NCBI RefSeq assembly: GCF_000968015.1
Contig: NZ_LACH01000016.1
Location: 1-64,000 of the forward strand
Length of the DNA stretch: 64,000 nt
Direction: 5' to 3'
Origin: Pseudomonas fluorescens
GTDB lineage: Bacteria > Pseudomonadota > Gammaproteobacteria > Pseudomonadales > Pseudomonadaceae
The position numbers were made by a program, and so were the translations under genes. Below are positions 24,398 through 41,902 of the stretch, piece after piece (position 1 is the stretch's first letter; each line of letters begins with the position of its first letter). The notes beneath the pieces are model-generated. The model had not been told where the DNA came from. It ran no database searches and saw only the letters and a program-made list of their open reading frames with translations.

Positions 24398-24443
24398 CAG
24401 CTGTCGAGCTTGCGAGGCTGCGTTCGGCGACGGAGTCGCCCGC
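24392..24443. repeat. half copy of the gtagcagctg hairpin family
   Basis: TTTGTAGCAGCTGTCGAG...GAGGCTGCGTTCGGC matches the left arm of the element at 26-78. The right arm is missing. The TAG stop of the preceding glycosyltransferase is formed by the first bases of the repeat, and the ATG of a decayed GNAT gene follows at once. The repeat may have replaced the original intergenic DNA here. Confidence 0.7.
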
Positions 24444-24779
24444 ATGAATTTAACTATTCGCCGTGCCCAACTTGCCGACGCTGACTTCCAGTGCCAGGGC
24501 GCGGGGCGAAAGTTACTGTTAACCGCAATTGCGCATGACCGGGATCGAGCACTCTATGGTCTGTCGCTGACCACGTTCCGCGAGTTGCCATGGAATGAAC
24601 CGTTTTATCAGCGCATGGGCTTTGAAACATTGAGCCCTGCGCAAATGGGTCCATGTTTAAAAGACGTATTGAGTAACAAAGTGGCCCACGGTTTACCTGG
24701 TGAACGCCGTTGTGCGCTGCGTTTCAACCTTAGAGCGGCGCCTTCAAATCAACCCCCAACGCCTGGGCAAAGGCCTTGA
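24444..24779 (+). pseudogene. decayed GNAT N-acetyltransferase gene
   Basis: The frame begins MNLTIRRAQLADAD, a normal GNAT start, but then jumps straight to FQCQGAGRKLLLTAI, the acetyl-CoA-binding motif A (Q/R-x-x-G-x-G/A) that usually lies about 75-90 residues further on. The C-terminal half then continues in the usual way (LTTFRELPWNEPFYQRMGFE...GERRCALRFNL). The central beta strands are missing, so this is an internal deletion and the product cannot fold as an acetyltransferase. The frame then runs past the expected end into the convergent LysR gene, overlapping it by about 50 bases. The in-frame deletion gives a 111-codon remnant. Confidence 0.75.
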
Positions 24780-25695
24780 CCAGCGGGCTGCGCACAGTGT
24801 TGTGGCGCAGGATCAGATTGAACGGCGTGACGATGTGTATGAGGTCTGGACGCACCGCCCGGAACTGCCCCTGCGCCACCATCGACGTAGCGTAATGCTG
24901 GGGAAGAAAACCCACGAAACGCCCGGTCTTAATCAACAATGCCACCGCTTCGACCTGGCTGGCCGACGCGGAAAAGCTGTCGTAATGGGCAAAATTCAGT
25001 TTGTCGCGATGGATCGCGTAGCGGTGGTTGATGCACTCGTAATCCTTGAGCACATGACTGCCGATTTCTGCGTCCGGCACTGTGAACAACGGATGACCGA
25101 CCGCGCAATAAACTTCGGAGCGTTCTTCATACAGCGCGTAGTAATCAAACTCTTCGCGCTTCTGATAAACCGGCACGATCCCCGCTACTAATCGCCCCTC
25201 TACCACGCCTCTTTCCACTTCATCTAGCTGAGACGCTTGAAGTTGAAACCTTACTTTCGGCGACGTCTCATTAATTATTCTAAGAGCAGCAACTAACGGC
25301 GAATTAACGTCGGAAATCGTATTGTCAATAACCCCCACGCCAAGGTCACCGATCAGTTCGTTTTGCGCTGAACTAAGGCGATCACGAAAGTTGTCGACCG
25401 AGGCAAATAAATCAATGGACGCCTGATACACCAAGCGGCCCTCTTCGGTCAGGTGAAACCCCTCGCGACCTCGGGTGCACAGGCGCATGCCGATGCGGAT
25501 CTCCAGGTCGGAGATCTGTTTGCTGATGGCTGCCAGTCCCACATTCAGCTCGTTCTGGGCGGCACTGAAGCCGCCGGCCTCGACCACAGCCTTGAACACT
25601 TTGAGCAGTTTGAAGTCCAGACCGCTGAGGGTCAGCGGTGCCCGATGGCCCGTTTTCAGCGGCGGGTTTCCTGAATTGGAAAGTGGGGTTTCCAT
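24730..25695 (-). CDS. LysR-family regulator of the adjacent catabolic cluster
   Basis: A 321-residue LysR regulator. The N-terminal winged helix is LSGLDFKLLKVFKAVVEAGGFSAA...NVGLAAISKQISDLEIRIGMRLC (about residues 23-75), followed by a linker helix and a two-lobed effector domain. It is transcribed away from the ArgH-like gene across a 307-base region, the standard layout for a LysR protein that controls a divergent operon. The effector is unknown, but by context should be the imported compound or an early product. Base composition is a little lower in GC near the middle of the gene (25.2-25.4 kb) than in its neighbours. Confidence 0.9.
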   Translation of the reverse strand: METPLSNSGNPPLKTGHRAPLTLSGLDFKLLKVFKAVVEAGGFSAAQNELNVGLAAISKQISDLEIRIGMRLCTRGREGFHLTEEGRLVYQASIDLFASVDNFRDRLSSAQNELIGDLGVGVIDNTISDVNSPLVAALRIINETSPKVRFQLQASQLDEVERGVVEGRLVAGIVPVYQKREEFDYYALYEERSEVYCAVGHPLFTVPDAEIGSHVLKDYECINHRYAIHRDKLNFAHYDSFSASASQVEAVALLIKTGRFVGFLPQHYATSMVAQGQFRAVRPDLIHIVTPFNLILRHNTVRSPLVKAFAQALGVDLKAPL

Positions 25696-26002
25696 AATGC
25701 CTATTTACCTCTGGCGCCCTATTCAACAATCTGTGTCCAACAACAAAAATAGTGCTGGTAAATAATAATGACCACAGAAAACCAGGCTTGGCAACCGCTA
25801 ATAAATCCCGCACATCAGTGCCAACCCACTGATTTCGAAACATTAAAAGCTGACACTTCGATCAGCTCTCGTAACGATGCAACTGCGCTTCCCCCCTGCC
25901 CTTGAATAATGTTTAGGCCTCACCACGCCCCATTGATTTGCGACGAGTGTTTCAGGCCCGGCACACCGATTTCAGTTCGCTTTACCGACGAGGAAAACAA
26001 CA
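25696..26002. promoter_or_regulatory. divergent control region with TATTTACC inverted repeat
   Basis: The 307 bases between the LysR and ArgH-like starts contain no gene. TATTTACC at 25702-25709 is repeated inverted as GGTAAATA at 25757-25764, 47 bases apart and just upstream of the lysR start codon, so it could be an autoregulatory operator or the arms of a leader hairpin. The region is AT-rich (AATAATAATG, ATTAAAAG) compared with its surroundings. A ribosome site GAGGAAAAC precedes the ArgH-like ATG at 26003. Confidence 0.45.
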
Positions 26003-27430
26003 ATGTCTCAAACCACCGACCGTCTCTGGGGTGCTCGCTTCAAAAGCGGCCCATCCGAAGCCCTGGCGGCCTTGTCCCGTTGCCCCGAGCGCTACTTTCG
26101 CCTCACCCCGTACGACCTCGCCGGCTCCAAGGCGCATGCCCGTGAATTGCAGCGCGCCGGGCTGCTGAGCGAACAAGAAACCCAAACCATGCTCGACGCT
26201 CTTGAGCGCATCGGTGATGACTTCCGCGCTGGCAGCATCGCACCGACCCTGGACGACGAAGACGTCCACACCTTTATCGAACGCCTGCTGACCGAACGCC
26301 TCGGCGCCCTCGGTGGCAAGCTGCGCGCCGGCCGTTCACGCAACGACCAGACCGCCAACGACCTGCGCCTGTTCCTGCGTGATCACGTCCGCACCCTGGC
26401 CGTTGAAGTCCTGGCCTTGCAACAAGCGCTGGTGGATCAGGCCGAGCAACACATCGAAAGCATCTGCCCGGGGTTCACTCACCTGCAGCAAGCCCAGCCG
26501 ATCGTTTTCGCTCACCACCTGCTGGCCCACGCCCAATCCATGTTGCGTGACGTGCAACGCCTGGTGGACTGGGACGTACGCACTTCGCTGTCGCCACTCG
26601 GCGCGGCGGCGATGGCCGGTTCCGCCATCGCTCGCCTGCCTCAGCAGTCGGCCAAGGAAATGGGTTACAGCGGCGTGTGTGAAAACTCCATCGACGCCGT
26701 GGCCAGCCGCGATCACGTTGCCGAGTTCCTGTTCATTGCCAGCATGCTCGGGATCAACATTTCCCGCCTTGCTGAAGAATTCTGCCTGTGGTCGTCGCGG
26801 CAGTTTCGCTGGGTCGCACTGGACGATGCCTACGCCACCGGCAGCTCGATCATGCCGCAGAAGAAAAACCCGGACATCGCTGAACTGGCACGCGGCAAGG
26901 CGGGTCGCCTGATCGGCAACCTGACCGGTCTGCTCTCCACCCTGAAATCCCTGCCGCTGTCGTACAACCGCGACTTGAGCGAAGACAAAAACGGCGTGCT
27001 CGACAGTGTCGACACCCTGTTGCTGGTGCTGCCTGCCATGGCCGGGATGGTCGCGACCATGAAGGTCAACGTCGAAGAGTTGCGGCGTCAGGCGCCACTG
27101 GGTTTCACCCTCGCCACCGAAGTCGCCGACTGGCTGGCCATGCGCGGCGTGCCGTTCAAGGAAGCCCACGAAATTACCGGTGCGCTGGTCCAGGCCTGTG
27201 AGAAACACGACATCGAATTGTGGGAAGCCTCCCCGGCGTTGTTGGCCGAGATTGACCCGCGCCTGACTGCGGAAGTACGCGAGAGCCTGACCCTCGAAGC
27301 CGCCATCGCCGCCCGCAGTGGCTGGGGCGGCACCGCGCCGCAACAGGTGCGCGAGCAGATCGGCCGGTTGAAAACGGCCCTGGCTGCTCAACAAGAGTGG
27401 ACCGAGAACTATCACGGTTTCCGACTCTAA
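26003..27430 (+). CDS. argininosuccinate lyase-family C-N lyase (ArgH paralogue)
   Basis: A 475-residue member of the fumarase/aspartase superfamily, ArgH branch. The three conserved regions are present: AGRSRNDQTANDLRLF (about 111-126), PGFTHLQQAQPIVFAHH (about 155-171) and the signature GSSIMPQKKNPDIAELARGKAGR (starting near 280), whose mobile serine is the catalytic acid/base. It should cleave a C-N bond next to a succinyl group, releasing fumarate. The opening (LWGARFKSGPSEALAALSR...LTPYDLAGSKAHAREL) looks to me more like actinobacterial ArgH than the usual proteobacterial form with FNASI. With the transporter and hydrolases downstream, a catabolic lyase acting on an aspartate or argininosuccinate-like compound is at least as likely as arginine biosynthesis. 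Confidence 0.88.
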   Translation: MSQTTDRLWGARFKSGPSEALAALSRCPERYFRLTPYDLAGSKAHARELQRAGLLSEQETQTMLDALERIGDDFRAGSIAPTLDDEDVHTFIERLLTERLGALGGKLRAGRSRNDQTANDLRLFLRDHVRTLAVEVLALQQALVDQAEQHIESICPGFTHLQQAQPIVFAHHLLAHAQSMLRDVQRLVDWDVRTSLSPLGAAAMAGSAIARLPQQSAKEMGYSGVCENSIDAVASRDHVAEFLFIASMLGINISRLAEEFCLWSSRQFRWVALDDAYATGSSIMPQKKNPDIAELARGKAGRLIGNLTGLLSTLKSLPLSYNRDLSEDKNGVLDSVDTLLLVLPAMAGMVATMKVNVEELRRQAPLGFTLATEVADWLAMRGVPFKEAHEITGALVQACEKHDIELWEASPALLAEIDPRLTAEVRESLTLEAAIAARSGWGGTAPQQVREQIGRLKTALAAQQEWTENYHGFRL

Positions 27431-27444
27431 AGCAGCACACAGAA

Positions 27445-27539
27445 CCTGTAGGAGCGAGCCTGCTCGCGATAGCGGTGGGTCAGTCAACATCGGTGTTGAT
27501 GTAATACCGCCATCGCGAGCAGGCTCACTCCTACAGGGA
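27445..27539. repeat. REPIN (paired REP), loop type 1
   Basis: Two inverted REP cores (GGAGCGAGCCTGCTCGCGAT and its complement) flank a loop containing CAGTCAACATCGGTGTTGAT. The pair folds into one long hairpin between the lyase gene and the permease gene. Similar loops occur at 30302-30330 and 35713-35740. Confidence 0.9.
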
Positions 27540-27579
27540 TTGTGGTTGGCCTGAATTACCAAGTGTACGGAGAAACAAC

Positions 27580-28458
27580 ATGAGCCAGACTCAGGCAGAA
27601 CGACTCCAGGCGGAGCGCAAACTGGCGGAAAACCAGTTCGATATCACCCAGTACCACCATGTGCCACGGCGTTACTACGGGCGGATTTTCTTCGCCACCG
27701 TCATCGTCATTGCGATTCTCGGGCTGGTGCGGGCCTTCGCCGAAGGCAAGATCGAGTGGTCTTACATCGGCCAGTTCCTCACCTCCCAGGCGATCATGTG
27801 GGGTTTGCTCAACACCATCATCATGGCAGTACTGGCCATGGCGTTGGGCATTGTGTTCGGGGTGATCACGGCAATCATGCGCATGTCGGCCAACCCGATC
27901 CTGCGCTACGTGGCAGTGACCTACACCTGGTTGTTTCGCGGTACGCCACTGATTCTGCAACTGCTGTTGTGGTTCAACCTGGCGCTTATTTTTCCCACCA
28001 TCGGCATCCCCGGTGTGTTCGAGATGGACACCGTGAGCCTGATGACGCCGTTCGTGGCTGCCCTCCTCGGCTTGAGCATCAACCAGGGCGCCTACACCGC
28101 CGAAGTGGTGCGTGCCGGCCTGCTGTCGGTGGACACCGGCCAGTACGAAGCCGCCAAGTCGATCGGCATGCCGCGCCTGCAAGCGCTGCGCCGGATCATC
28201 CTGCCGCAAGCCATGCGGGTCATCATTCCACCGGTCGGTAACGAGTTCATCGGCATGGTGAAAATGACCTCGCTGGCGAGCGTCATCCAGTACTCGGAAC
28301 TGCTCTACAACGCCCAGAACATCTACTACGCCAACGCCCGGGTGATGGAGCTGCTGATCGTCGCCGGTATCTGGTACCTGGCCACCGTCACCGTCCTGTC
28401 CTTCGGTCAAAGCCGTCTGGAGCGTCGTTTCGCTCGCGGCGCCGGCAAGCGTTCTTGA
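27580..28458 (+). CDS. polar amino-acid ABC transporter permease
   Basis: A 292-residue permease of the HisM/GlnP family. The N-terminus is a long cytoplasmic tail (about 45 residues), followed by five or six helices. The EAA loop is visible as [29 protein letters not shown] (about residues 188-216). Only one permease gene is present, so it probably forms a homodimer. It is followed by its ATPase (ten-base gap) and binding protein. By family the substrate is a polar amino acid or a related zwitterion. The neighbouring lyase, hydrolases and PrpD protein suggest an amino-acid conjugate. Confidence 0.92.
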
Positions 28459-28468
28459 GGAGTTCAAC

Positions 28469-29233
28469 ATGAGAAGCATCGTCAAGGCCGTGAGCCTGAA
28501 CAAGTACTACGACCATTTCCACGCGCTCAAGGACATCAACATCGAAGTCGAGCAAGGCGAAGTGCTGTGCATCATTGGCCCGTCCGGCTCCGGCAAAAGC
28601 ACCTTGCTGCGTTGCATCAACCAGCTGGAAAAAATCGACAAGGGTGGCCTGTGGGTCGACGGCGAACTGGTGGGTTACCGGATCGTCGGCAACAAACTGC
28701 ACGAACTCAACGAGTCGCAGATCGCCCGTCAACGCTTGTCCACCGGCATGGTGTTCCAGCGTTTCAACCTGTTCCCGCACATGACCGTGCTGCAAAACAT
28801 CATCGAAGGGCCGTGCCAGGTGCTCAAGCGTTCGCCCAAAGAGGCGCACGAAGAAGCCGTGGAATTGCTCGCTCGCGTCGGCCTGGCCGACAAGCGCAAC
28901 AGCTACCCGATCGAACTCTCGGGTGGTCAGCAACAACGCGTCGCCATTGCCCGTGCACTGGCCATGCGGCCCAAGCTGATGCTGTTCGATGAACCCACTT
29001 CGGCACTCGACCCGGAACTGGTCGGTGAGGTGCTGTCGGTGATGCGCGACCTCGCGCAGACCGGCATGACCATGATCGTCGTCACCCATGAACTGGGCTT
29101 CGCTCGCGAAGTCTCCAACCGCATGGTGTTCATGGACGGCGGGCAGATCGTGGAGGCAGGAAGCCCCGAAGAAATACTAATAAGTCCGCAAAACCCGCGC
29201 ACCCAAAGCTTCATTTCTGCCGTTCGAACCTAA
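28469..29233 (+). CDS. polar amino-acid ABC transporter ATP-binding protein
   Basis: A 254-residue ATPase of the GlnQ/HisP class. Walker A is GPSGSGKST (about residues 38-46), the signature is [21 protein letters not shown], Walker B is [19 protein letters not shown] and the switch His is in [13 protein letters not shown] 12-residue insertion ([12 protein letters not shown]) after the Walker A helix is seen in some members. The ribosome site GAGG is nine bases before the ATG. It powers uptake by the permease just upstream. Confidence 0.93.
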
Positions 29234-29286
29234 GCGCCGTGCTTGTAAAACAAGAGCCGCCTAATAACACTCATAAGAGAACGACC

Positions 29287-30111
29287 ATGAAGAACATAGT
29301 TATCCCCGCAGTACTCGCAAGCGTTATGGCTTCCGGCTTCGCCTTCGCCGCCGAACTACCGGCCAGCATCAAAGAAAAAGGCGAGGTCGTGGTAGCGATC
29401 ATGCCGAACTACCCGCCGATGGATTTCAAGGACCCGGCCACCAACACCCTTACCGGTCTCGACTATGACCTGGGCAATGCCCTGGCCGAACGTCTGGGCG
29501 TGAAGATCAAATGGCAGGAAACCGGCTTCGAGCAAATGATCAATGCGCTGACCACCGACCGCGTGGACATGGTGATGTCAGGCATGACCGACACCGCCGA
29601 ACGTCAGGCCAGCGTGACCTTCGTCGACTACTTCACCAGCGGTCCGCAGTTCTACACCTTGCAGAAAAACAAGGATTTCAACGAGATCACCGACCTGTGC
29701 GGCAAGAAAGTCGGCACCAGCCGCCGCACCACCTTCCCCGCGGAAATTGCTGAATACAGCAAGGCTAACTGCGAAACCGCCGGCAAACCGGCCATCGTGG
29801 TGATCGGCACCGAAGGTTCGGCCGATGCCCGTGCGCAACTGCGTCAGAGCCGTATCGACGCGGCCATGCAGGGCAGCGAAACCCTGCCGTACCTCAAGAC
29901 CCAGGAAAAGGACATGTACAAAACCGTGGGCCTGCCGATCTCCAAGCAGTTCACCGGGCTGGGCGTGAGCAAGAAAAAACCTGAGTTGAGTGAAGCGGTG
30001 AAGGTGGCGATGCAGAGCATGGTGGATGACGGCACGTATCAGACCATCCTGAAAAAATGGGACCTGGAGTTGGGTGCGATCAAGACTGTGACCATTAACG
30101 CCGGCAAGTAA
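29287..30111 (+). CDS. polar amino-acid ABC transporter substrate-binding protein
   Basis: A 274-residue periplasmic protein of the SBP_bac_3 family. I start it at MKNIVIPAVLASVMASGF, which gives a signal peptide cleaved after AFA; a longer frame upstream (from 29239) has no secretion signal at its start and is rejected. The early ligand-pocket pattern VVAIMPNYPPMDFKDP and GLDYDLGNALAERLG are present, with the Arg-containing MSGMTDTAERQASVTFVDYF that binds the alpha-carboxylate in this family. The ligand is therefore likely to have an amino-acid-like head group. Gene order permease-ATPase-binding protein differs from the more common binding-protein-first order. Confidence 0.92.
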   Translation: MKNIVIPAVLASVMASGFAFAAELPASIKEKGEVVVAIMPNYPPMDFKDPATNTLTGLDYDLGNALAERLGVKIKWQETGFEQMINALTTDRVDMVMSGMTDTAERQASVTFVDYFTSGPQFYTLQKNKDFNEITDLCGKKVGTSRRTTFPAEIAEYSKANCETAGKPAIVVIGTEGSADARAQLRQSRIDAAMQGSETLPYLKTQEKDMYKTVGLPISKQFTGLGVSKKKPELSEAVKVAMQSMVDDGTYQTILKKWDLELGAIKTVTINAGK

Positions 30112-30118
30112 TGCTTGC

Positions 30119-30225
30119 CCTGTAGGAGTGAGCCTGCTCCGGGCGGCGTTCCGACGATAGCGGTGTGTCAGTCAGCAGAGATGTTGGATTTGCCGGCCTC
30201 ATCGCGAGCAGGCTCACTCCTACAA
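30119..30225. repeat. REPIN with altered first core
   Basis: CCTGTAGGAGTGAGCCTGCTC opens the element, and ATCGCGAGCAGGCTCACTCC closes it. The first core carries a short extra insert (GGGCGGCGTTCCGA) that breaks the usual stem. The loop has CAGTCAGCAGAGATGTTG. It lies seven bases after the binding-protein stop. Confidence 0.8.
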
Positions 30226-30268
30226 GGTTACGGGTTGACCGGAGATTTGATGATCGACCCAGATCCCA

Positions 30269-30360
30269 TGTGGGAGCGAGCTTGCTCGCGATGAGGCCAT
30301 GCAGTCGACATTGATGTTGAATGACACACCGCTATCGCGAGCAAGCTCGCTCCCACAGGG
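30269..30360. repeat. REPIN, loop type 1
   Basis: TGTGGGAGCGAGCTTGCTCGCGAT and its complement flank a loop with CAGTCGACATTGATGTTGAA. It is the second REPIN in a 284-base spacer between the binding protein and the first CE4 gene, so the spacer is nearly all repeat. Transcription of the hydrolase genes must either read through both elements or start at a promoter in about 30226-30268 or 30361-30395. Confidence 0.9.
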
Positions 30361-30395
30361 TTCGGCGTCTACTTATAGATAGTTGGAGCACCACG

Positions 30396-31244
30396 ATGTC
30401 CTCCTCACCCCAACCCACCTGGCCTGACCAGCACAAAGCCTGCCTCGCCCTGGCCTTCGACCTCGACGGCCCGACCGGCGATGCCATGCTCAACGGCTCG
30501 ATCTGGCGCAAGCCCGAGTACTTCGGTTTCGGCGGTTATGGCCCCTACCGTGCCCTGCCACGCATCCTCGATGTGCTCGATGAGTACCAAATCCCGACGA
30601 CATTCTTCGTCCCGGCCTGGGTCGTGGAGAACTGGCCGAAACAGTGCCAGGCGATTGTCGAGCGCGGGCATGAAGTGGCCTACCACGGCTACAAACACGA
30701 ATCCTTTTACGCCCTGACGCTGGACCAGCAAAAGGACGTGATGAACAAATCCCGCGAGGTGTTCTGGAAGCACTTGAACATCCGCGCCGAAGGTTTCCGC
30801 ACCCCGTCCGGCGACTGGCGGGCCGAAACCCCGGCGATGCTGGTGGAAGCCGGCGTGACCTACTCCAGCAGCATGCGCGGTGATGACCGGCCGTACCTGG
30901 TGAAAGTGCCGGGTTACGAAACACCGCTGGTGGAAATCCCCGGTCGCTGGGAAATGGACGACTACGCCTCTCTCGCCTACACCCGCGCGCCGGACTTTCC
31001 TTCCGGGCTGGACCGCACTGCCAGTTACGCACTGACCCTCGATAACTGGTGCCGCGAGTACGACGGCGCCATGAACGAAGGGTTGTGCCTGACCACCCTG
31101 TTCCACCCCAAGATCACCGGCAAACCGGGACGCATCCTGCTGCTGGAAAAACTCTTCGAACACATGCGCCAGCGCGATGACGTGTGGTTCGCCACGTGCC
31201 GCGATGTCGCCCAGTGGTGGCTGAAGGAGCATCACCATGGCTGA
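30396..31244 (+). CDS. CE4 polysaccharide-deacetylase-family hydrolase (HpPgdA/PuuE-like), first copy
   Basis: A 282-residue NodB-fold enzyme with no signal peptide, so it is cytoplasmic. Metal-site positions are intact: Asp22 and Asp24 in LAFDLDGPTG, and His97 and His101 in HEVAYHGYKHESFY. Later blocks GFRTPSGDWRAETPAML and VEIPGRWEMDDYASLAY match the HpPgdA-like branch, which includes proteins acting on small amides. Related enzymes of known function are the PuuE allantoinase and, as I recall, a cyclic imide hydrolase from P. putida, so a small cyclic amide or imide is more likely than peptidoglycan. It overlaps the second CE4 gene by eight bases. The start at 30396 follows a GGAGCACC ribosome site. 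Confidence 0.88.
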   Translation: MSSSPQPTWPDQHKACLALAFDLDGPTGDAMLNGSIWRKPEYFGFGGYGPYRALPRILDVLDEYQIPTTFFVPAWVVENWPKQCQAIVERGHEVAYHGYKHESFYALTLDQQKDVMNKSREVFWKHLNIRAEGFRTPSGDWRAETPAMLVEAGVTYSSSMRGDDRPYLVKVPGYETPLVEIPGRWEMDDYASLAYTRAPDFPSGLDRTASYALTLDNWCREYDGAMNEGLCLTTLFHPKITGKPGRILLLEKLFEHMRQRDDVWFATCRDVAQWWLKEHHHG

Positions 31245-32124
31245 TTCCACTGTCTGGCCCAAAGGTTACCGCTGCGCTGTGGTGCTGACCGTCGATTACA
31301 ACGACATCCACGGCATCCTCACCCAGGCCCCGGAAGTCGCCGGGCGCGACAAGACGCTGTCGGTCTGGCGCTATGGCACCCAACGCGGCGTCGACCGTTT
31401 GCTCGGTTTGTTCGAAGAACTGGGGGTTTCCAGCAGCTGGTTTGTGCCCGGTATCGTCGCCGAGGAAAACCCCGAGCATATTCGGGCAATCCAGGCCGGT
31501 GGGCATGAGATTGCCTGCGCCGGTTATCGCCATCAGAACTACGACAACCTGAGTCTCAACGAGCAAAGCGCCGAGATTGCCAAAGGCTGTGAGGCATTGA
31601 CCGCGCTGACGGGCCAACGTCCAACAGGCTTTCGCATCCCGGCCGGCAACGGTGCGCCAGGCTTCATCGAGGCGTTGAAGGATCACGGCATTCGTTGGTC
31701 CTCATCCTGGCGCGGTGATGATTTGCCGTTCGCTCATCCGACGGCGCCCGACGTCATCGAGTTGCCGTTGCACTACGAACTGGAAGACGAACCCTACTTC
31801 GCCTTCAACCTCAGCCCGGCCGTGCCGCCAGCACAATCGCGGATCGCTTCTTACAGCCACACCCTGGGCAACCTGCAAATGGACTTCGCCGGGTTTCACC
31901 GGTTTGGTTTGTGTTATGTACTGCGGCTGCACCCGGAGATCATTGCGACACCTGGGCGGATTGGCGTACTGCGCGAGTTGCTTGAGGGGATTCAACAGCA
32001 CGATGACGTGTGGATTGCCACGGGCGCCGACGTCGCGCAATGGTGGGCCGAATCGGCGCTGCCGGTGACCGAGGATCATCCGGCCTCGGTGTATGAGCGC
32101 CATTATCGGGATTACCTCCTATGA
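31237..32124 (+). CDS. CE4 polysaccharide-deacetylase-family protein, second copy with altered metal site
   Basis: A 295-residue cytoplasmic NodB-fold protein, paralogous to its upstream neighbour. The first His of the metal pair is replaced: HEIACAGYRHQNYDN has Ala95 where the neighbour has His97, while His99 is kept. The second Asp is also changed (LTVDYNDIHG, Asp20 then Asn22). The fold motifs GFRIPAGNGAPGFIEAL and ELPLHYELEDEPYFAF remain. Either it is a metal-independent amidohydrolase, as reported for PuuE allantoinase, or a partner subunit for the first copy. It overlaps the PrpD gene by four bases. Confidence 0.87.
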   Translation: MADSTVWPKGYRCAVVLTVDYNDIHGILTQAPEVAGRDKTLSVWRYGTQRGVDRLLGLFEELGVSSSWFVPGIVAEENPEHIRAIQAGGHEIACAGYRHQNYDNLSLNEQSAEIAKGCEALTALTGQRPTGFRIPAGNGAPGFIEALKDHGIRWSSSWRGDDLPFAHPTAPDVIELPLHYELEDEPYFAFNLSPAVPPAQSRIASYSHTLGNLQMDFAGFHRFGLCYVLRLHPEIIATPGRIGVLRELLEGIQQHDDVWIATGADVAQWWAESALPVTEDHPASVYERHYRDYLL

Positions 32125-33470
32125 CCGAGCGGATGCAGCGATTGGCGCAGTTCTGCGTCGACACCCGATTCGAAGACTTGCCGCCCTCACTGGTGACCCA
32201 AGCCAAGCGGCACATACTCGACACCTTCGGCGCGACCCTGGCCGGGGCTGGCAGCGAGGTCGCGAAACAGGCACGGCAGGTCTTCGAAGGTGAAACCGGG
32301 AGCACGCTGATCTGGGGCAGCGATCAGCGCACCGGCGCGGCTCAGGCCGCCATGCTCAATGGTGTCGCCGCCCATGCCCTGGAACTGGACGACACCGGTG
32401 GCTGCGACCATTCCGGCGCGGTGGTGCTGCCGGCCGTCATGGCGGCGGTGTCGATGTCTGGCAAACCGGTGAATGGCCGGGAGTTGATCACGGCCGTGGT
32501 GATCGGCTACGAAATCGGTCGCCGGGTGCTCGAAGCCTGCGGCAGTTATTCGGCCCACAACGGCGCCGGCTGGCACTCCACCGCCACCTGCGGCGTATTC
32601 GGCGCGGCGGCGGCCAGTGCGCGAATTCTCGGACTGGATACCGCGCAAACCGTCTCGGCGCTGGGCATTGCCGGCAGTTTCAGTGGTGGATTGTGGGCAT
32701 TCATCCACGACGGATCGCAAAGCAAAAAACTTCACAGCGGTCGTGCCGCCGAGGGTGGATTGCTGGCGGCGCGATTTGCCCAACGAGGTATCACCGGGCC
32801 GACGAAGTTGTTCGACGATGTCTGGGGCGGGTTTCTGAAAACCCTGGCCGGCGAGAACTCACAACCTGACGCGCTGGATGCGGAACTGGGCGTCGTATGG
32901 AAACTCGCTCGCTGTTCGATCAAACCGTACGCCGCGTGCCGAGGAACCCATTCGGCAATCGATGCGCTGGGCCTGTTGCTGGATCAACTGCAGGTCAGCG
33001 TGGATCAGGTCGAGGATGTCCGGGTGTCGTTGTGCGGGTTTCTTCAGGACATGTGCGGCGGGCGCGACGTCAGCACGCTGGCGGCGGCGCAGATGAGCCT
33101 GCCGTATGCCCTTGCGGCCCGGCTGGTGCAAGGTCATTGCCGGCTGGAGGCTTATGACGATCAACAACGGGGCGATCCACGGATTGCTCACTGGATGTCG
33201 CGCATCCGTCTTGAAGTGGACCCGCAACTGTCAGAGGATGGCGAGCCCATCGTCAGCGTGCGGACCGTGGACGGTCGGCAGGCGAGCCTGTGTGTTGAAG
33301 TGCCGTTAGGTGCACCGGGCAATCCGTTGAGTGATGTGGCGCTGGAAGAGAAGTTTTTCAGTCTGGCTGGGCGGGTGATGCCGCGGGAGCAGGCTGTGGA
33401 ATTGCTTGAGCAGTTGTGGCGGTTGGAGGAACTGGAATCGGTTGGCTCTCTGGATCGGTGGCTGACTTGA
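32121..33470 (+). CDS. MmgE/PrpD-family protein
   Basis: A 449-residue member of the MmgE/PrpD superfamily (2-methylcitrate dehydratase, cis-aconitate decarboxylase and iminodisuccinate epimerase fold). The N-terminal helical domain starts RLAQFCVDTRFEDLPPSLVTQAKRHILDTF. Family landmarks are AAHALELDDTGGCDHSGAVVLPA (about residues 82-104), GWHSTATCGVFGAAAASA and SKKLHSGRAAEGGLLAARFA. There is no prpB, prpC or acnD beside it, so methylcitrate breakdown is unlikely. Because an ArgH-family lyase is in the same cluster, epimerisation or dehydration of a succinyl-amino compound, like iminodisuccinate epimerase, is a reasonable guess. It is coupled to the second CE4 gene. Confidence 0.9.
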   Translation: MTERMQRLAQFCVDTRFEDLPPSLVTQAKRHILDTFGATLAGAGSEVAKQARQVFEGETGSTLIWGSDQRTGAAQAAMLNGVAAHALELDDTGGCDHSGAVVLPAVMAAVSMSGKPVNGRELITAVVIGYEIGRRVLEACGSYSAHNGAGWHSTATCGVFGAAAASARILGLDTAQTVSALGIAGSFSGGLWAFIHDGSQSKKLHSGRAAEGGLLAARFAQRGITGPTKLFDDVWGGFLKTLAGENSQPDALDAELGVVWKLARCSIKPYAACRGTHSAIDALGLLLDQLQVSVDQVEDVRVSLCGFLQDMCGGRDVSTLAAAQMSLPYALAARLVQGHCRLEAYDDQQRGDPRIAHWMSRIRLEVDPQLSEDGEPIVSVRTVDGRQASLCVEVPLGAPGNPLSDVALEEKFFSLAGRVMPREQAVELLEQLWRLEELESVGSLDRWLT

Positions 33471-33491
33471 ATATTGCGTTGCCTTGGCGGG

Positions 33492-33562
33492 CCCCATCGC
33501 GAGCAAGCTCGCTCCCACATTTGAAATGCATTCCCCTGTGGGAGCGAGCTTGCTCGCGATTG
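33492..33562. repeat. REPIN, loop type 2
   Basis: ATCGCGAGCAAGCTCGCTCC and its complement flank ACATTTGAAATGCATTCCCCTG. The orientation of the cores is opposite to the type 1 elements. The same loop, reversed, is found at 53153-53220. Confidence 0.9.
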
Positions 33563-33619
33563 GCAGCGACTCGGTGTTACGTCGAACACTAAAATCTAAA
33601 TAAGGATATTTGCCCCACC

Positions 33620-34798
33620 GTGGCCACTTACTCACTCGTTATCCGCCGGTTGATGATCGTTTCGCTGACCATCGTCGTCAGCCGCGCCATCACCAGCCCG
33701 CTGCTGACGTTGTTCCTGAGCAACAAACTCGGCCTCAACCAACAGGACGTTGGCTTGCTGCTGGGCATCGCGGTGTTCATCGCCACCCTGCTCGCGCTCT
33801 ACGGCGGTTACATCATCGACCGCCTCGAGAAGCGCCGGCTGCTGATCCTGGCGATGCTCTCCAGCGCCATCGGCTTCGTGCTGCTGACCTTCGCCGACAA
33901 CCTCTACCTGACCACCGCCACCCTGGTGATCACCGAAACCGCCTCGGCGCTGTTCCTGATCGGCTCGAAGGCGATCCTCAGTGAAAACCTGCCGATGGGC
34001 CAGCGCGCCAAGGCGTTTTCCCTGCGCTACACCTTGACCAACATCGGCTACGCCACCGGCCCGATGTTGGGCGTGGTGATTGCCGGCGTGTATCCGATTG
34101 CACCGTTCCTGATCGCCGGCGGCATCGCCTTCTTCAGTATTTTTCTGATGATCGGGATACCGAAGGACGCGGCCCAGACACCCGTAATCGGCCAGCCCGC
34201 GAGTTTTCTCAAGACACTGGTCACCCTGAAGAATGACCGCACGCTGATCATGTTCACCTGCGGCTGCCTGCTCAGTACCGTCGTCCACGGCCGTTTCACC
34301 CTGTACCTGTCGCAATATTTGTTGGTGACCCATGATTCCAAACGGGCACTGGAAACCATGGCCGCCCTGCTCGCCTGCAACGCGATCAGCGTGATCCTGC
34401 TGCAATACCAGATCGGCCGCTTCCTCAAACGTGAACAATTGCGTTACTGGATCGCGGGCGGTACCAGTCTGTTCATCGTCGGGTTGATCGGTTTCAGCCT
34501 GGCCGACAGCCTTGTGAGCTGGTGCGTGGCAATGTTCATCTTCACCCTCGGTGAAATGATCATTTACCCCGCCGAATTCCTCTTCGTCGACACCCTGGCC
34601 CCGGAAGAACTGCGCGGCAGCTATTACGGTGCGCAAAACCTCGCGGCCCTTGGCGGAGCCCTGAGCCCAGTGATTTGCGGATACCTGCTGATTCACACCC
34701 CGGCGCCAACGATGTTTTATGCCCTGAGCGCGCTGACCGCCATGGGCGGTTTCCTGTGTTTCATGAGCGGTCGTCGGGTGGCCTTACAGCAAAATTAA
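33620..34798 (+). CDS. MFS transporter
   Basis: A 392-residue major facilitator with about twelve helices. It starts at GTG (MATYSLVIRRLMIVSLTIVV); a later ATG at residue 12 would cut into helix 1. The loop after helix 2 has YGGYIIDRLEKRRLLILAML, a variant of the MFS signature, and LTNIGYATGPMLGVVIAG marks helix 5. It resembles the MdtH-like group of exporters. It is separated from the PrpD gene by a REPIN, on the same strand, so it may or may not belong to that cluster. A strong intrinsic terminator follows. Confidence 0.85.
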   Translation: MATYSLVIRRLMIVSLTIVVSRAITSPLLTLFLSNKLGLNQQDVGLLLGIAVFIATLLALYGGYIIDRLEKRRLLILAMLSSAIGFVLLTFADNLYLTTATLVITETASALFLIGSKAILSENLPMGQRAKAFSLRYTLTNIGYATGPMLGVVIAGVYPIAPFLIAGGIAFFSIFLMIGIPKDAAQTPVIGQPASFLKTLVTLKNDRTLIMFTCGCLLSTVVHGRFTLYLSQYLLVTHDSKRALETMAALLACNAISVILLQYQIGRFLKREQLRYWIAGGTSLFIVGLIGFSLADSLVSWCVAMFIFTLGEMIIYPAEFLFVDTLAPEELRGSYYGAQNLAALGGALSPVICGYLLIHTPAPTMFYALSALTAMGGFLCFMSGRRVALQQN

Positions 34799-34888
34799 TG
34801 CACTCAAACTGCATTAATATGAATTTGTCAGTATCAGGAATGAACGGCACACTGTGCCCGTTCCTCCCCCAATAGTTGGAACAACTTC

Positions 34889-34925
34889 AAGGGCTTTCTG
34901 GGTATCCCAGCTAAGCCTTTTTTTT
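34889..34925 (+). terminator. intrinsic terminator after the MFS gene
   Basis: GGCTT and CTGGG pair with CCCAG and AAGCC around a TAT loop, followed by a run of about nine T. This is a textbook plus-strand rho-independent terminator about 90 bases after the MFS stop. It separates the cluster from the HPP gene. Confidence 0.88.
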
Positions 34926-34956
34926 GCCTCGGTTTTTTCAACGGATCGTCTGCCTC

Positions 34957-35664
34957 ATGTTCGCTCGCTGGTTTCCCGCCGCCATCAACACCCGCCCCTC
35001 CGAATGGAGCCGCGCCGCGATTGGCATGTCCCTGGGCACGATGTTCAGCGTCTGGCTCTGCAGCCAGGTATTCGGCATGCAAGTGGCGCAGCACCTGATC
35101 GGTCCGCTGGGTGCATCGGCCGTATTGCTGTTCGCAGTGTCCTCCGGCGCCCTCGCCCAGCCCTGGTCGATTCTTGGCGGCTACCTCAGCGCCGGGGTGG
35201 TTTCGCTGCTGGTCGCTCACGTGCTCGGACGAACCCTCGGCAGCGCTTGCCTGGCGGCAGGCATGGCGCTGATTCTGATGTGCTGGCTGCGTTGCCTGCA
35301 TCCACCGGCCGGGGCCTTGGCGCTGCTGCTGGTGTTGGCAGACCCGGCGACCATTGCCCTGGACTGGAAAGCCCTCGGCCCGGTGATGCTCAGCGGGTCG
35401 ACCCTGCTGCTCAGCGCCCTGGCCTACAACAACCTGACGCGCATACGTTACCCAAAACGCGCCAGCGAACCGGTGTCCAGGGTACCGGCCGACCACCCGC
35501 CCACCGACAGCCAGGCGATCACCGCCCAGGACCTGAAACTGGCCCTGGCGGAGATGGAAGCGTTCTTCGATGTCACGCCCGAAGACCTCGAACAATTGAT
35601 CCATGCCAGTGAATTGCATGCCAGACGGCGCAGCATTGGTGAAGTACTCAGCAGTAGAACCTGA
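34957..35664 (+). CDS. HPP-family membrane protein
   Basis: A 235-residue protein with four or five membrane helices in its first 165 residues, and the family motif RCLHPPAGALALLLVL at about residues 110-125. The C-terminal 70 residues are soluble and acidic (ITAQDLKLALAEMEAFFDVTPEDLEQLI). Some HPP proteins are associated with nitrite transport, and others carry CBS domains, which are absent here. I start it at MFARWFPAAINTRPSEW; an upstream in-frame ATG at 34924 falls in the terminator T-run. The function is not known from context. Confidence 0.8.
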   Translation: MFARWFPAAINTRPSEWSRAAIGMSLGTMFSVWLCSQVFGMQVAQHLIGPLGASAVLLFAVSSGALAQPWSILGGYLSAGVVSLLVAHVLGRTLGSACLAAGMALILMCWLRCLHPPAGALALLLVLADPATIALDWKALGPVMLSGSTLLLSALAYNNLTRIRYPKRASEPVSRVPADHPPTDSQAITAQDLKLALAEMEAFFDVTPEDLEQLIHASELHARRRSIGEVLSSRT

Positions 35665-35680
35665 AGAAACACAGATCCCC

Positions 35681-35772
35681 TGTGGGAGCGAGCTTGCTCG
35701 CGAGGGGGCCCTGTCAGTCAATATTGATGTTGAATAACACACCGCCATCGCGAGCAAGCTCGCTCCCTCAGG
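35681..35772. repeat. REPIN, loop type 1
   Basis: TGTGGGAGCGAGCTTGCTCG opens the element, and CGCGAGCAAGCTCGCTCCC closes it, around CAGTCAATATTGATGTTGAA. It lies between the convergent HPP and astA genes and probably serves as a two-way barrier. Confidence 0.9.
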
Positions 35773-35796
35773 TTCAGAGCCACCCCAAAAATCTGT

Positions 35797-36831
35797 TTAG
35801 GCCGCTGACAATTGTCGTGCCGGCACCGCCAGACTCACCGCGCGCACCGATGATCCGGCACTCAACCCCAAACTCTTCGCAGTCTCTACATCGACAATCA
35901 ACGTACCAGCAGCCACCCGCGCCGGTGCCGCGGTAATCCGGCACTCGGCAAACTGGCGGTTGTGAATCAGGTAAGTCGCCGCCTGCTCCCCCGGTGTGCC
36001 GATGCTCAGTTGCAGCACCTGGCTGTCACGCACCGCACGGATATCCCCGGTGGCGCATTCGATCAACGGGCCGCCGTCGAAGATGTCGATGTAGTCGCGG
36101 TGTTCGAATCCTTCAGCCTTGAGCATGCCCAGCGCCGGTTCCGTGTTGGGGTGAACGCGACCGATGACGGTTCTTGCTGCTTCAGGCAACAGGCAGGTCG
36201 GCAGCGGAAACTTGGGCATCAGCTCGGCGATGAAGGTCTTGTTACCCAGCCCGGTCAGGTAGTCGGCATCGGCAAAATCCATCTTGAAGAAGTGCCGCCC
36301 CAGACCTTCCCAGAACGGTGAAACGCCCTCCGCGTCCGAGTAGCCGCGCATCTCGGCGATGACCTTCTCTGCGAAATGCTGACGAAATTCCGCCAGAAAC
36401 AGGAACCGCGCCTTGGACAGCAAACGCCCGTTCAGGCCGCTGCGGTGATCGGCATGCAGAAACAGCGAACACAGCTCTGAGTGACCGGTCATATCGTTAC
36501 CGAGGAACAATGTCGGCAGTTGCTGATTGATCCCAAGGTTTTTCGAGGCCGCGACAAACAGGCCCAGTCGATAGTTGTACCAGGGCTCGCGCAGGCCGAC
36601 GGCACCGGCCAGTGCGCAAATGCCGATGGCTTCATGCTGGTCATTCTCGAGCACAAACAGGTAATCGGCATCGGCGCGTTCGGCCTCGCCGGCGAAGGTT
36701 TTCGCCGCCCATTCCAGACGCTGACGCAGACGCCCCGCGTCGGCCGGCAAGGTGGTCAAACCGGTTCCGGCGCTATGGGCCAGGGCTAACAGTGCCGGCA
36801 GGTCTGCCGGTGTGGCTGGACGAACGATCAT
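35797..36831 (-). CDS. astA: arginine N-succinyltransferase (AstA/AruG type)
   Basis: A 344-residue GNAT-fold enzyme that succinylates arginine (or ornithine) with succinyl-CoA, the first step of the AST pathway. It starts MIVRPATPADLPALLALAHSAGTGLTTLP, the family opening; the open frame continues upstream, but only inside ctlX. Diagnostic blocks are LYNYRLGLF-like WYNYRLGLFVAASKNLG, LFLGNDMTGHSELCSLFL, VIAEMRGYSD and GVSPFWEGLGRHFF. Other ast/aru genes are absent here, so this is a stand-alone copy in addition to a presumed main operon. Its ATG overlaps the ctlX stop by four bases, tying it to citrulline or arginine use. Confidence 0.92.
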   Translation of the reverse strand: MIVRPATPADLPALLALAHSAGTGLTTLPADAGRLRQRLEWAAKTFAGEAERADADYLFVLENDQHEAIGICALAGAVGLREPWYNYRLGLFVAASKNLGINQQLPTLFLGNDMTGHSELCSLFLHADHRSGLNGRLLSKARFLFLAEFRQHFAEKVIAEMRGYSDAEGVSPFWEGLGRHFFKMDFADADYLTGLGNKTFIAELMPKFPLPTCLLPEAARTVIGRVHPNTEPALGMLKAEGFEHRDYIDIFDGGPLIECATGDIRAVRDSQVLQLSIGTPGEQAATYLIHNRQFAECRITAAPARVAAGTLIVDVETAKSLGLSAGSSVRAVSLAVPARQLSAA

Positions 36832-37766
36832 CGCACTTGCTCCTGGGTAACCTGATGTCTGGACAGAAAGACCTCGGCCAACATGCAGCGCGCGCTGCCG
36901 CCGCCGATGCGCTCGATGGTGTCGATATTGACGGGGAGTGGCGTGGTGTGGGCTTCGATCAAACGACGTTGCGCGGCATCCAGCGATTGCCAGGCCGTGC
37001 GCGACATCACCAGCAAGGGTTCGCCCGCGGCGTTGTGGACCTCCAGCATGTTGCCGGCGAAGGATTCCAGCTGCTCCCAGCTCAGGGCGATGACCTGCTT
37101 GCCGCTGTCTTCCAGTCGCGAACGCAGGGCCAGGCGTTCGGCCGGGTGCGTGACCGACGCCAGGCAAGCCACGGCCAGGCGCGTGCCGACACTCATCATC
37201 ACGTTGGTGTGGTAAATCGCGACGCCCTGGCGGTCCACCGCATTGAAGGCGCACAGCTCGTAACCCAAATGACTGACCACCTGATCCAGAGCACGGGCAT
37301 GGGTGCGGGTGGAATAACCGGCGTAGCAAATCCGCTGCTGACGATCCAGCACCATGCTGCCGGTGCCTTCGAGGAACACTTCCTGCTGTTCGAGGCAGGA
37401 AAGGTCCAGCAATTGTTCTACCCGGTACTCGTCCCGCAGCCAGTCAAGCACGCCTTTGTCCCGTTCCAGACGCCGGTTGTGGCCCTGCATCGGGTACAGC
37501 ACCAATGTGCCGTCGGGATGGCTGCTCCACCAATTGTTGGGGAAGATCGAATCCGGGGTATGCGGCGCTTCGCGGTCGTTGTGCACGATGACTTCGACGC
37601 CATGGTGACGCAGCGCAGCAACGTAGCCATCGAACTCTTGCAGGGCCTTTTGCTGAACGTCTTCGCTGACCGCGGCCGGCTGCTGGAAACGGTTGTTCGC
37701 CGCCGTGTCCTGATTGAAGGAGAAACGTGTCGGGCGAATCATCAAAACGGTATTGGTGGTTTGCAT
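36828..37766 (-). CDS. ctlX: citrulline-utilisation hydrolase (arginine deiminase-related, CtlX type)
   Basis: A 312-residue member of the guanidino-group modifying superfamily. It starts MQTTNTVLMIRPTRFSFNQDT; a longer frame upstream begins inside a repeat-bearing spacer and is not family-like. The expected catalytic set is visible: Asp in TPDSIFPNNWWSSH, Glu in EVFLEGTGSMVLDR, His in YHTNVMMSVG and the nucleophilic Cys near the C-terminus in GGGSARCMLAEVF. Proteins of this group are reported to hydrolyse the ureido group of citrulline, giving ornithine, ammonia and CO2, so it may feed AstA or ornithine use. It is coupled to astA, and a basic amino-acid transporter lies upstream. Confidence 0.88.
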   Translation of the reverse strand: MQTTNTVLMIRPTRFSFNQDTAANNRFQQPAAVSEDVQQKALQEFDGYVAALRHHGVEVIVHNDREAPHTPDSIFPNNWWSSHPDGTLVLYPMQGHNRRLERDKGVLDWLRDEYRVEQLLDLSCLEQQEVFLEGTGSMVLDRQQRICYAGYSTRTHARALDQVVSHLGYELCAFNAVDRQGVAIYHTNVMMSVGTRLAVACLASVTHPAERLALRSRLEDSGKQVIALSWEQLESFAGNMLEVHNAAGEPLLVMSRTAWQSLDAAQRRLIEAHTTPLPVNIDTIERIGGGSARCMLAEVFLSRHQVTQEQVR

Positions 37767-37903
37767 GGGCACAGATTCAATGAGGGTTAAGAGGTACTCA
37801 TTGTCTGTTTCGCAGGCTGAAAAACCCGGTTGATAAGTGGCTGCGGCGTGATGGAAACGGCTGAAAAACGTGTGTGGCCCAGCCGATTCGGCGAGCACCG
37901 AAA

Positions 37904-37994
37904 AGCAAAAGATCGCAGCCTTCGGCAGCTCCTACAGAATCGGGTTTTCACGCGGTCTGTGTAGGAGGTGCCGAAGGCTGCGATCTTTTGATCT
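37904..37994. repeat. gatcttttgatc hairpin repeat
   Basis: AAAAGATCGCAGCCTTCGGC...AGCTCCTACA and its inverse GTAGGAGGTGCCGAAGGCTG...CGATCTTTTGATC form a long stem with a loop of about 25 bases. It sits between the lrp and ctlX genes on the minus strand. Confidence 0.88.
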
Positions 37995-38005
37995 TGATCT
38001 TGCTT

Positions 38006-38485
38006 CTATTCCATCGTGGTCTTGACCATCGCCAGTTCCGGATGGCTCACCAACTTGTCGATGTGCAAATCCGGATCATCGAACCAGACTTCGGTCAGCA
38101 CCCGATAGTGTTCCATGTCCCGGCAACGCATGCGCAAGCTGTAGTCGAACGCACCGCTGATCAACCGACATTCCAGCACCTGCGGGCAGGCGCGGACCTT
38201 GGCTTCAAACGCCTTTTGCGCCGCCCGCCCACTCTGGTTGGACAACGCCACCAGCACCAGCAACGACAAGCCTGGCGTCAGTTTCTTTTCATCGAGAATC
38301 GCGCCATACCCACGAATGACCCCGAGCTGTTCGAGTTTGCGCACTCGTTCCAGGCACGGCCTGGGCGTCAGGTGCACGCGCTCGGAAAGCTTTTGATAAG
38401 TGATGCGCCCTTCGTGGCGCAGCACTTCGATGATTGCCTGATCGATACGATCAAGCACGATCGACAGATCGCGGATATCCGCCAT
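38006..38485 (-). CDS. Lrp/AsnC-family regulator
   Basis: A 159-residue feast/famine regulator. It has an N-terminal winged helix (LDRIDQAIIEVLRHEGRITYQKLSERVHLTPRPCLERVRKLEQLGVI) and a C-terminal RAM ligand-binding domain (LTPGLSLLVLVALSNQ...CPQVLECRLISGAFDYSLRM). It follows the transporter ATPase gene by twelve bases on the same strand and is probably cotranscribed with it. A regulator at the end of an arginine transporter operon recalls the aot-argR order of P. aeruginosa, although the regulator family differs. It probably senses arginine, citrulline or another basic amino acid and controls this region. Confidence 0.9.
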   Translation of the reverse strand: MADIRDLSIVLDRIDQAIIEVLRHEGRITYQKLSERVHLTPRPCLERVRKLEQLGVIRGYGAILDEKKLTPGLSLLVLVALSNQSGRAAQKAFEAKVRACPQVLECRLISGAFDYSLRMRCRDMEHYRVLTEVWFDDPDLHIDKLVSHPELAMVKTTME

Positions 38486-38497
38486 GTACGTCTTGCC

Positions 38498-39259: not shown

Positions 39260-39315
39260 GTCAGCACTCCTGGAGCGGCGCGCCAAGCGGCACCGCTCTG
39301 GATAGAAAATGGGAT

Positions 39316-40748: not shown

Positions 40749-40824
40749 GTCAGTCACCTGTCTTGAGGCGCCCGCGCTCAAGCGCTGCGCCTGTTACCAG
40801 GACGCAGCCTTCGGGGCGCGAGGA

Positions 40825-41607: not shown

Positions 41608-41902
41608 CTTCTTGAGTCCCGGATTATTTGGATTTATCGCGGCCTGGCGCCTGCGCCTAACCACACTTTTTGACAGGGGCAGAGAGTCGATGCGGTATTC
41701 ACCGCAGCCGTATTTGTTGTTGTTTTCGACCGGCCCGAGCCAGTCGTCGGAGTGCAGTCCGCTCCAGGCGCATCGTCGCAAGCGCTTGAAATGGACCGTC
41801 AGAATGCCAATTGCCAGGCCGGTGCAGGTGTCGTAAGTCCCTGTTCTGACAGCGCAACTGCGCTGAACGAGGGGCTTTCACAGCCGTTTCTGTCGTCGGC
41901 AA

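Follow-up and report, generated by a model that had tools for sequence, protein, structure and literature searches.

A stretch of 64,000 nucleotides from Pseudomonas fluorescens (contig NZ_LACH01000016.1, positions 1 to 64,000; hereafter the window) contains two overlapping genes for proteins of carbohydrate esterase family 4 (CE4), termed here CE4A and CE4B, the first with a complete set of metal-binding and catalytic residues and the second with a degenerate metal site. The balance of the evidence leans towards a single cytoplasmic hetero-oligomeric amidohydrolase, most likely of A2B2 composition, in which CE4A is the catalytic subunit and CE4B a non-catalytic one; their physical association is inferred. 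CE4B probably acts as a helper subunit without catalytic activity and not as a second enzyme. The two genes and their junction are as follows.

30396-31244, plus strand: CE4A, 282 aa, CE4/NodB-fold hydrolase (PF01522) with complete metal and catalytic set; proposed catalytic subunit
31237-32124, plus strand: CE4B, 295 aa, CE4/NodB-fold paralogue (PF01522) with degenerate metal site; proposed non-catalytic subunit
31237-31244, plus strand: 8-nt overlap of the CE4A end and the CE4B start, likely giving translational coupling

Both products passed the PF01522 cut-off of 23.1 bits (CE4A, 78.3; CE4B, 64.0), and they share 33% identity over 268 aa. The active-site set of CE4A is complete (D22, D24, H97, H101, R135 and H237; the roles assigned to single residues are those general to CE4 enzymes), and CE4B has D20, N22, A95, H99, R133 and H232 at the aligned positions, with two of the three metal ligands gone. 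These residues agree with an earlier reading of this DNA from its letters (the sequence-only reading), which had given Asp22, Asp24, His97 and His101 for the first copy and Asn22 and Ala95, with His99 kept, for the second, and had seen no signal peptide in either; no signal sequence was visible by eye in CE4A or CE4B. The same reading had raised the possibility that the Ala is shifted and that another His fills the site. On inspection, GHEIACAGYRH of CE4B aligned gap-free to GHEVAYHGYKH of CE4A, and the other His residues near A95 are H90, which pairs with H92 of CE4A, and H99. An alignment shift as the source of the missing His was ruled out, as the motifs pair without a local gap. N22 and A95 were invariant across the first eight CE4B orthologues, and the residue pattern of CE4B is therefore not a sequencing error. 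A block particular to CE4B (GDDxP, E.P.H.E and D.PYF) is strongly conserved as well.

Residue conservation was counted from tblastn alignments over a set of 127 distinct A-B pairs drawn from gamma-, beta- and alphaproteobacteria, from which identical pairs and four broken loci (L093, L105, L116 and L225) had been removed; L112 was counted among the pairs, though frameshifts split its B, lyase, permease and LysR genes each. The pairs came from relatives (7 of 56 genomes besides the window's own), a species-genome scan (the best 80 of 117 matches), plasmids (11 of 514 matching records examined, 7 with the pair) and further genomes in overlapping sets (7 of 398 from the phylum, 2 of 347 from one order, and 33 of 299 and 7 of 149 from two families). 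CE4A kept D/D/H/H/R/H in 127/127 pairs. The full metal triad was present in CE4B of 0/127, and the CE4B proteins showed 17 residue patterns. Only Arg133 was present throughout (127); Asp20 occurred in 121 proteins and the motif-5 His in 122. At the metal site, Asn22 was found in 119, and the first and second metal His were present in 4 and 83, respectively. D-N-A-H predominates in Pseudomonas CE4B, Rahnella has D-N-C-F, the named Burkholderiaceae have D-N-S-C, and four named alphaproteobacteria have L-D-H-F, G-D-H-T, I-N-H-F and L-S-H-I. The latter four, together with L135 (of which L164 is a wider copy) and L174, were grouped by the protein tree into an alphaproteobacterial clade of six pairs, in all of which the catalytic Asp of CE4B is replaced by Leu, Gly, Ile or Pro and in five of which the motif-5 His is replaced by Arg, the pair being still kept. 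Among 24 single-copy CE4 relatives, 23 retained D/D/H/H/R/H, the exception being one of two adjacent CE4 genes in L152. As the single-copy relatives keep the set, loss of the metal site marks B among the sequences compared.

Other adjacent CE4 genes were seen at a few loci. L152 (1504-3165; same region in L162) holds a second CE4 tandem, with one degenerate (D/S/H/H/F/H) and one complete member, and degenerate and complete CE4 tandems may have arisen more than once. L154 (1510-3331) and L155 (1519-3190) carry adjacent CE4-like pairs in which both members are apparently metal-site degenerate (tblastn, 22-26% identity).

The sequence-only reading had left two options for such a tandem, a metal-independent amidohydrolase like PuuE or a two-subunit enzyme with one active and one supporting chain. 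Of these, the two-subunit option is favoured, because CE4A is complete and the CE4B triad broken in every pair, B is under selection and A and B are co-inherited (see below), and the PuuE-like option is disfavoured. PuuE shows that a NodB-type fold can act as a metal-free allantoinase, according to PMC10967932, and CE4B could by analogy be an independent metal-free hydrolase, with A and B taking different ring forms or successive bonds of one imported compound; a cyclised N-succinyl compound could conceivably give two products with different rings. The retention of the motif-1 Asp, motif-3 Arg and motif-5 His in most or all CE4B proteins (121, 127 and 122 of 127) and the conserved block described above are consistent with this proposal, which we nevertheless consider unlikely on several grounds. 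NEHWYH was found at six CE4 positions in 23/23 PuuE rows, 0/21 CE4B rows and 0/21 CE4A rows of a common alignment, in which CE4B shows 14 patterns among its 21 rows, and CE4B is therefore not PuuE-like by residues. The first two of the six PuuE positions are alignment-dependent (N/E, or V/N for L039) and the other four unaffected, HW..Y..H being present in 23/23 PuuE. Neither CE4A (84.1 bits) nor CE4B (96.4 bits) reached the cut-off of 424.6 bits of the PuuE equivalog TIGR03212, which all 23 PuuE proteins used as a control passed with 529.7-551.1 bits. In addition, the six pairs of the alphaproteobacterial clade are retained with the Asp lost and, in five, the motif-5 His changed to Arg, and B was never seen without A at an otherwise intact locus among the collected loci. 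A PuuE-like metal-independent hydrolase is thus disfavoured as the common function of CE4B, given the pattern mismatch and the loss of the Asp in 6/127 and of the motif-5 His in 5/127.

In a maximum-likelihood tree of 73 proteins, the A clade (21 rows; support 100/100) and the B clade (21 rows; 100/99) were sisters (100/99), and the single-copy CE4 proteins fell outside A+B; some outgroup branches, both L152 genes among them, are very long, and a program warning flagged the junction of long branches in that region. A single duplication seems to have preceded the spread of the pair through gamma-, beta- and alphaproteobacteria. CE4B evolves faster than CE4A yet stays under purifying selection: for 75 Pseudomonas loci, by a simple pairwise count over 600 random pairs (597 for A and 571 for B after filtering on the synonymous rate, dS), the median nonsynonymous rate (dN) was 0.083 for CE4B vs 0.052 for CE4A, and the median dN/dS 0.093 vs 0.081. 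The higher dN and the degenerate metal site in every pair would be expected of a redundant duplicate drifting to loss, with no role. This explanation is hardly tenable and largely refuted by purifying selection near that of CE4A, by retention beside A from alpha- to gammaproteobacteria and by the conserved block of CE4B.

B was found by genome search in 52 genomes, and A adjoins B in 52/52; in G1052 (L225), the only such case among the 52, B lies beside A split over two frames. Complete pairs were present in 77 of 80 species-genome loci (the best 80 of 117 matches). The other three, L093, L105 and L116, all from Pseudomonas, carry large deletions, each different, by which the LysR gene has been joined to CE4A or CE4B; their lyase and importer genes are gone and A is cut or missing, and L116 keeps only part of CE4B. 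Complete and degenerate paralogues are thus always inherited together, as in the case of deoxyhypusine synthase discussed below, with these remnants as the only exceptions in the 80 loci. CE4B also bears the marks of a pseudoenzyme, in that the fold is kept, metal ligands are lost and the gene is under selection. A precedes B on the same strand in 127/127 pairs, with an overlap in 111 and a gap of ≤20 nt in 16, counted from the nearest in-frame start, from which true starts may differ. Some B genes have open frames of about 594 aa, which were rejected as fusions. A two-subunit enzyme would fit the strict co-inheritance, the gene overlap, the single old duplication, an A that is always complete and a B that is always degenerate yet selected, and is favoured on this sequence evidence.

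The structure predicted for CE4B (24 sequences) had a mean predicted local distance difference test score (pLDDT) of 80.0 and a predicted template modelling score (pTM) of 0.82, and was weak at 24-46 and 190-200, stretches that contain some of the invariant residues of CE4B. 3RXZ was the best solved sequence match of both CE4A and CE4B. It was also the best fold match of the CE4A model (Z 22.1, root-mean-square deviation (rmsd) 3.6, 249 aligned) and matched the CE4B model with Z 29.3, rmsd 3.1 and 273 aligned, bearing out the sequence-only reading that CE4B otherwise keeps the fold. Further fold matches of CE4B were 3QBU (Z 28.2), 1Z7A (27.6) and 3CL6 (26.9); in these searches VIA-align 2 re-examines Foldseek matches only, and the absence of a family there excludes nothing. 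The solved relatives are four-fold homotetramers in the cases of HpPgdA (PMC3084791) and PuuE (PMC12283931). Because two solved relatives are homotetramers, a mixed A-B assembly would be the simplest outcome. CE4B might instead bind a ligand or regulate the pathway as a soluble protein, serving substrate storage, sensing or importer control outside any stable complex with CE4A. Loss of the metal ligands while other positions are conserved fits binding without catalysis, and CE4B sits within the operon between CE4A and, where present, the MmgE/PrpD gene. We regard this as very doubtful, however, given that B directly follows A in all pairs and overlaps it in most, that A is its closest paralogue in the tree, and that the two solved relatives are described as homotetramers.

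The pair lies in a row of genes that run in one direction, in the order ArgH homologue, permease, ATPase, solute-binding protein (SBP), CE4A, CE4B and MmgE/PrpD, followed by a transporter of the major facilitator superfamily (MFS), with a divergent LysR-type regulator upstream. The permease, ATPase and SBP are components of an amino-acid-type ATP-binding cassette (ABC) importer, and repetitive extragenic palindromic (REP)-like repeats lie between the SBP gene and CE4A.

24730-25695, minus strand: divergent LysR-type regulator, likely of the cluster (Pfam HTH_1 and LysR_substrate)
26003-27430, plus strand: ArgH homologue (TIGR00838, 529.8 bits)
27580-28458, plus strand: amino-acid-type ABC permease (PF00528 and TIGR01726 above cut-off)
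28469-29233, plus strand: amino-acid-type ABC ATPase (PF00005; nearest NCBIfam model GlnQ, below the GlnQ cut-off)
29287-30111, plus strand: family-3 SBP (PF00497; signal sequence by eye)
30204-30356, no strand: three REP-like palindromic repeats in the interval between the SBP gene and CE4A, outside the proposed mechanism
32121-33470, plus strand: MmgE/PrpD family protein (PF03972/PF19305), starting in an ATGA overlap with the CE4B stop
33620-34798, plus strand: MFS transporter, often beside the cluster (PF07690)

Conservation of this arrangement was assessed in 71 wide loci, that is, those of the 127 pairs whose representative has at least 6.5 kb before A and at least 4.5 kb after B. The permease, ATPase and SBP genes were present in all 71, and L123 (Paracoccus) was the only locus in which the ArgH homologue was not found (70 of 71). 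MmgE/PrpD was found in 57, a LysR homologue (at least 45% identity) in 63 and the MFS gene in 62. Some of the other 56 pairs have wider copies (e.g. L036, L037, L165, L167 and L168), and the importer and lyase are there too. The REP-like palindrome GCGAGC...GCTCGC occurs in 16 copies at 27448-57281 of the window vs 0.02 expected by chance, the copies often being paired on opposite strands. No Rfam match at gathering score was obtained for 24000-42000, and promoter and terminator scans gave signals at or below shuffle level.

Other loci and another part of the window also contain CE4-related genes. In L161 (6290-10367) and L148-L150, a related importer is followed by a single metal-complete CE4 gene, with no A-B pair; in L161 the importer identities are 73% (permease), 67% (ATPase) and 51% (SBP), and no ArgH homologue lies within 19.9 kb. 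L161-type loci are a possible one-chain counterpart of the A-B system. A single CE4 gene of the branch lies near agmatinase/arginase-type genes and a creatininase-family gene in L129 (3080-11680) and near a ureohydrolase-like open reading frame (ORF; by eye) in L038 (9717-12942), neighbours that hint at substrates of guanidino or cyclic ureide type for this branch. The window at 13942-22802 reads by eye, from ORFs only, like an operon for Arn lipid A modification with a UDP-sugar dehydrogenase gene after it; ArnD in this row, if there, would be a third CE4-fold protein in the window.

The proteins around the pair provide clues to its substrate. The cluster lyase exceeds the TIGR00838 cut-off of 279.5 bits and contains the motifs RSRNDQ, GFTHLQ and GSSIMPQKKN. 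Its best solved match was 6IEM, titled 'Argininosuccinate lyase', which we take to be the Mycobacterium tuberculosis enzyme (499.7 bits), and 6G3D, listed by name as argininosuccinate lyase but presumably an ethylenediaminedisuccinate (EDDS) lyase, scored 205.6 bits; an EDDS or iminodisuccinate (IDS) lyase identity of the ArgH homologue was accordingly judged weaker than ArgH. The genome has a second argH-like gene (G000:C78), 43% identical to the cluster lyase. The Gln of the loop YN(K/R)DxQEDK, which we believe to hold the arginine end of the substrate, is Ser in the window lyase and Ser, Ala, Ile, Val or Gly in 15/15 gamma/beta cluster lyases (window included). The other argH-like copy of this genome (L170) retains the Gln, as do four lyases from the alphaproteobacterial clade that differ at other loop residues (YN to FN, EDK to ESK). 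The SBPs beside CE4A read QG(S/I/G)ET at a place occupied by an Asp both in the top solved match and in a second SBP of the window (40825-41781); in amino-acid-binding relatives this Asp presumably pairs with the alpha-amino group of the ligand. Extra SBPs at neighbouring places have QGTET in one case and LGPEY in another. The MmgE/PrpD protein best matched the IDS epimerase 2HP3 among solved structures (E 3.6e-38, 135.2 bits), with IRG1/cis-aconitate decarboxylases next at 127.7 bits and below. Characterised MmgE/PrpD substrates have a common 1,4-dicarboxylate backbone, according to PMC12290011. Taken together, the lyase, MmgE/PrpD and SBP features point to import of a succinyl compound, N-substituted or cyclised, with fumarate and an amine or guanidine as the presumed end products, and the makeup of the cluster suggests that the pair hydrolyses an N-linked succinate in its cyclic amide form.

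A specific version of this pathway, compatible with a two-subunit enzyme, is salvage of argininosuccinate, which is known to cyclise to anhydrides: CE4A/B would open the 5- and 6-ring anhydrides, the epimerase-like protein would correct the stereocentre, and the lyase would release arginine and fumarate. The lyase passes the ArgH equivalog and matches 6IEM far above 6G3D, arginase and ornithine cyclodeaminase genes lie beside the Paracoccus cluster, and AstA and CtlX genes for arginine and citrulline are next door in the window. The latter belong to an arginine/citrulline row at 35797-41781 on the minus strand (AstA, 464.9 bits, cut-off 391; CtlX, 416.9 bits, cut-off 334), which also includes a regulator resembling Lrp and an ABC importer resembling HisP, neither of which reaches the cut-off of its model. 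We nevertheless hold this substrate to be quite unlikely: few of the 71 wide loci have CtlX (16) or AstA (15) near the CE4 cluster, the loop Gln with its presumed role is replaced in 15/15 gamma/beta cluster lyases, the SBP lacks the acid that is usual for a free alpha-amino group, and bacterial use of argininosuccinate anhydrides appeared in none of the matches listed in a literature search.

For the two-subunit enzyme, the following mechanism is proposed. The A2B2 assembly would be a version of the four-fold homotetramer of the relatives. CE4A would bind a divalent metal via D24, H97 and H101; D22 would act as base and H237 as acid in opening a C-N bond in a small cyclic amide. CE4B, with the fold and, putatively, an interface retained and the metal site decayed, would be inactive itself; A would depend on it for assembly, for the shape of the substrate pocket or for activation. 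In a putative order of steps, the ABC importer would take up an N-substituted or cyclised amino-acid derivative, CE4A/B would open its ring to give an N-linked succinate, MmgE/PrpD would, if required, invert the 1,4-dicarboxylate at its stereocentre, and cleavage of the N-linked succinate by the ArgH homologue would yield fumarate and an amine or guanidine. In its strongest form, which we put forward as tentative, the pair would be an obligate enzyme-pseudoenzyme CE4 amidohydrolase whose metal chain works only in a mixed tetramer with its dead paralogue, kept as a pair since a duplication predating the spread of the cluster over three proteobacterial classes and committed to importing, opening, epimerising and cleaving a cyclised N-succinyl amino-acid or guanidino compound.

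Several points weigh against this proposal. CE4B might have metal-free activity outside the alphaproteobacterial clade, given the near-universal motif-1 Asp and motif-5 His and the invariant Arg, and it retains two distant His residues, H179 and H281, that are invariant in an 11-row alignment. The CE4A model is modest in quality, with a mean pLDDT of 70.1. Co-inheritance would also fit two enzymes of one pathway, and an A-B fusion was looked for and found in none of the 127 pairs. MmgE/PrpD is absent from 14/71 wide loci, all 14 of them Pseudomonas, and the putative pathway steps rest on homology only. The sample is also uneven, 77/127 pairs having a single pattern common in Pseudomonas.

CE4 proteins are routinely annotated as polysaccharide deacetylases; CE4A and CE4B, which show no signal sequence by eye and are encoded in a cluster for amino-acid-type import, probably have a small molecule as their substrate. 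The lyase of the cluster is likewise easily annotated as biosynthetic ArgH, as it is in a Burkholderia pyrrocinia record. The pair offers a clear example from nature of a degenerate paralogue retained alongside the complete copy, and as the metal site of CE4B is altered differently per lineage while the rest is selected, it can reveal why a pseudoenzyme subunit is retained. The pair is also a marker for an import-and-degrade cluster with a scattered distribution among pseudomonads, Burkholderiaceae and others. No description of a CE4 enzyme-pseudoenzyme pair or of the cluster appeared among the matches listed in literature searches limited to open-licence papers; CE4 pseudoenzymes are already known (BA3943, from PDB titles), as are dead-paralogue subunits in other folds.

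Among known systems, the nearest in structure are 3RXZ, a putative deacetylase of Mycobacterium smegmatis, and 3QBU, HP0310 of H. pylori. In PMC10967932, these two are the only members of a NodB-fold subclass of eight to keep all five active residues, as CE4A does, and substrates other than classical carbohydrates are suggested for the subclass. Unlike the pair, both are single-gene proteins as far as seen, and HP0310 is a homotetramer for which the accessible text of PMC3084791 describes no degenerate partner. BA3943 (PDB 7BKF, 6HM9 and 6HPA) resembles CE4B in being a CE4-fold protein titled a pseudoenzyme, but it is farther from CE4B (Z 18.8-19.3 vs 29.3 for 3RXZ), and the PDB titles name no partner chain. 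The PuuE allantoinase (TIGR03212; PDB 3CL6, and 1Z7A, which we also take to be a PuuE) shares the NodB fold type with the CE4 pair and acts on a small cyclic substrate as a homotetramer; it has a single chain with a fixed metal-free pattern, whereas here one complete metal-type chain stands beside one degenerate chain of many patterns. The IDS epimerase (PDB 2HP0/2HP3), the best solved match of the window's MmgE/PrpD, is of a type paired with an ArgH-superfamily lyase; here, the lyase is near true ArgH, and the CE4 pair and an amino-acid importer are added. Finally, in the trypanosomatid deoxyhypusine synthase, a dead paralogue is reported to raise activity 3000-fold in a heterotetramer (PMC3663545). 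The reaction and the organisms are unrelated to those considered here, and activation by the dead chain, shown there, is proposed here; since that enzyme uses a design of one active and one dead chain, such a design is workable.

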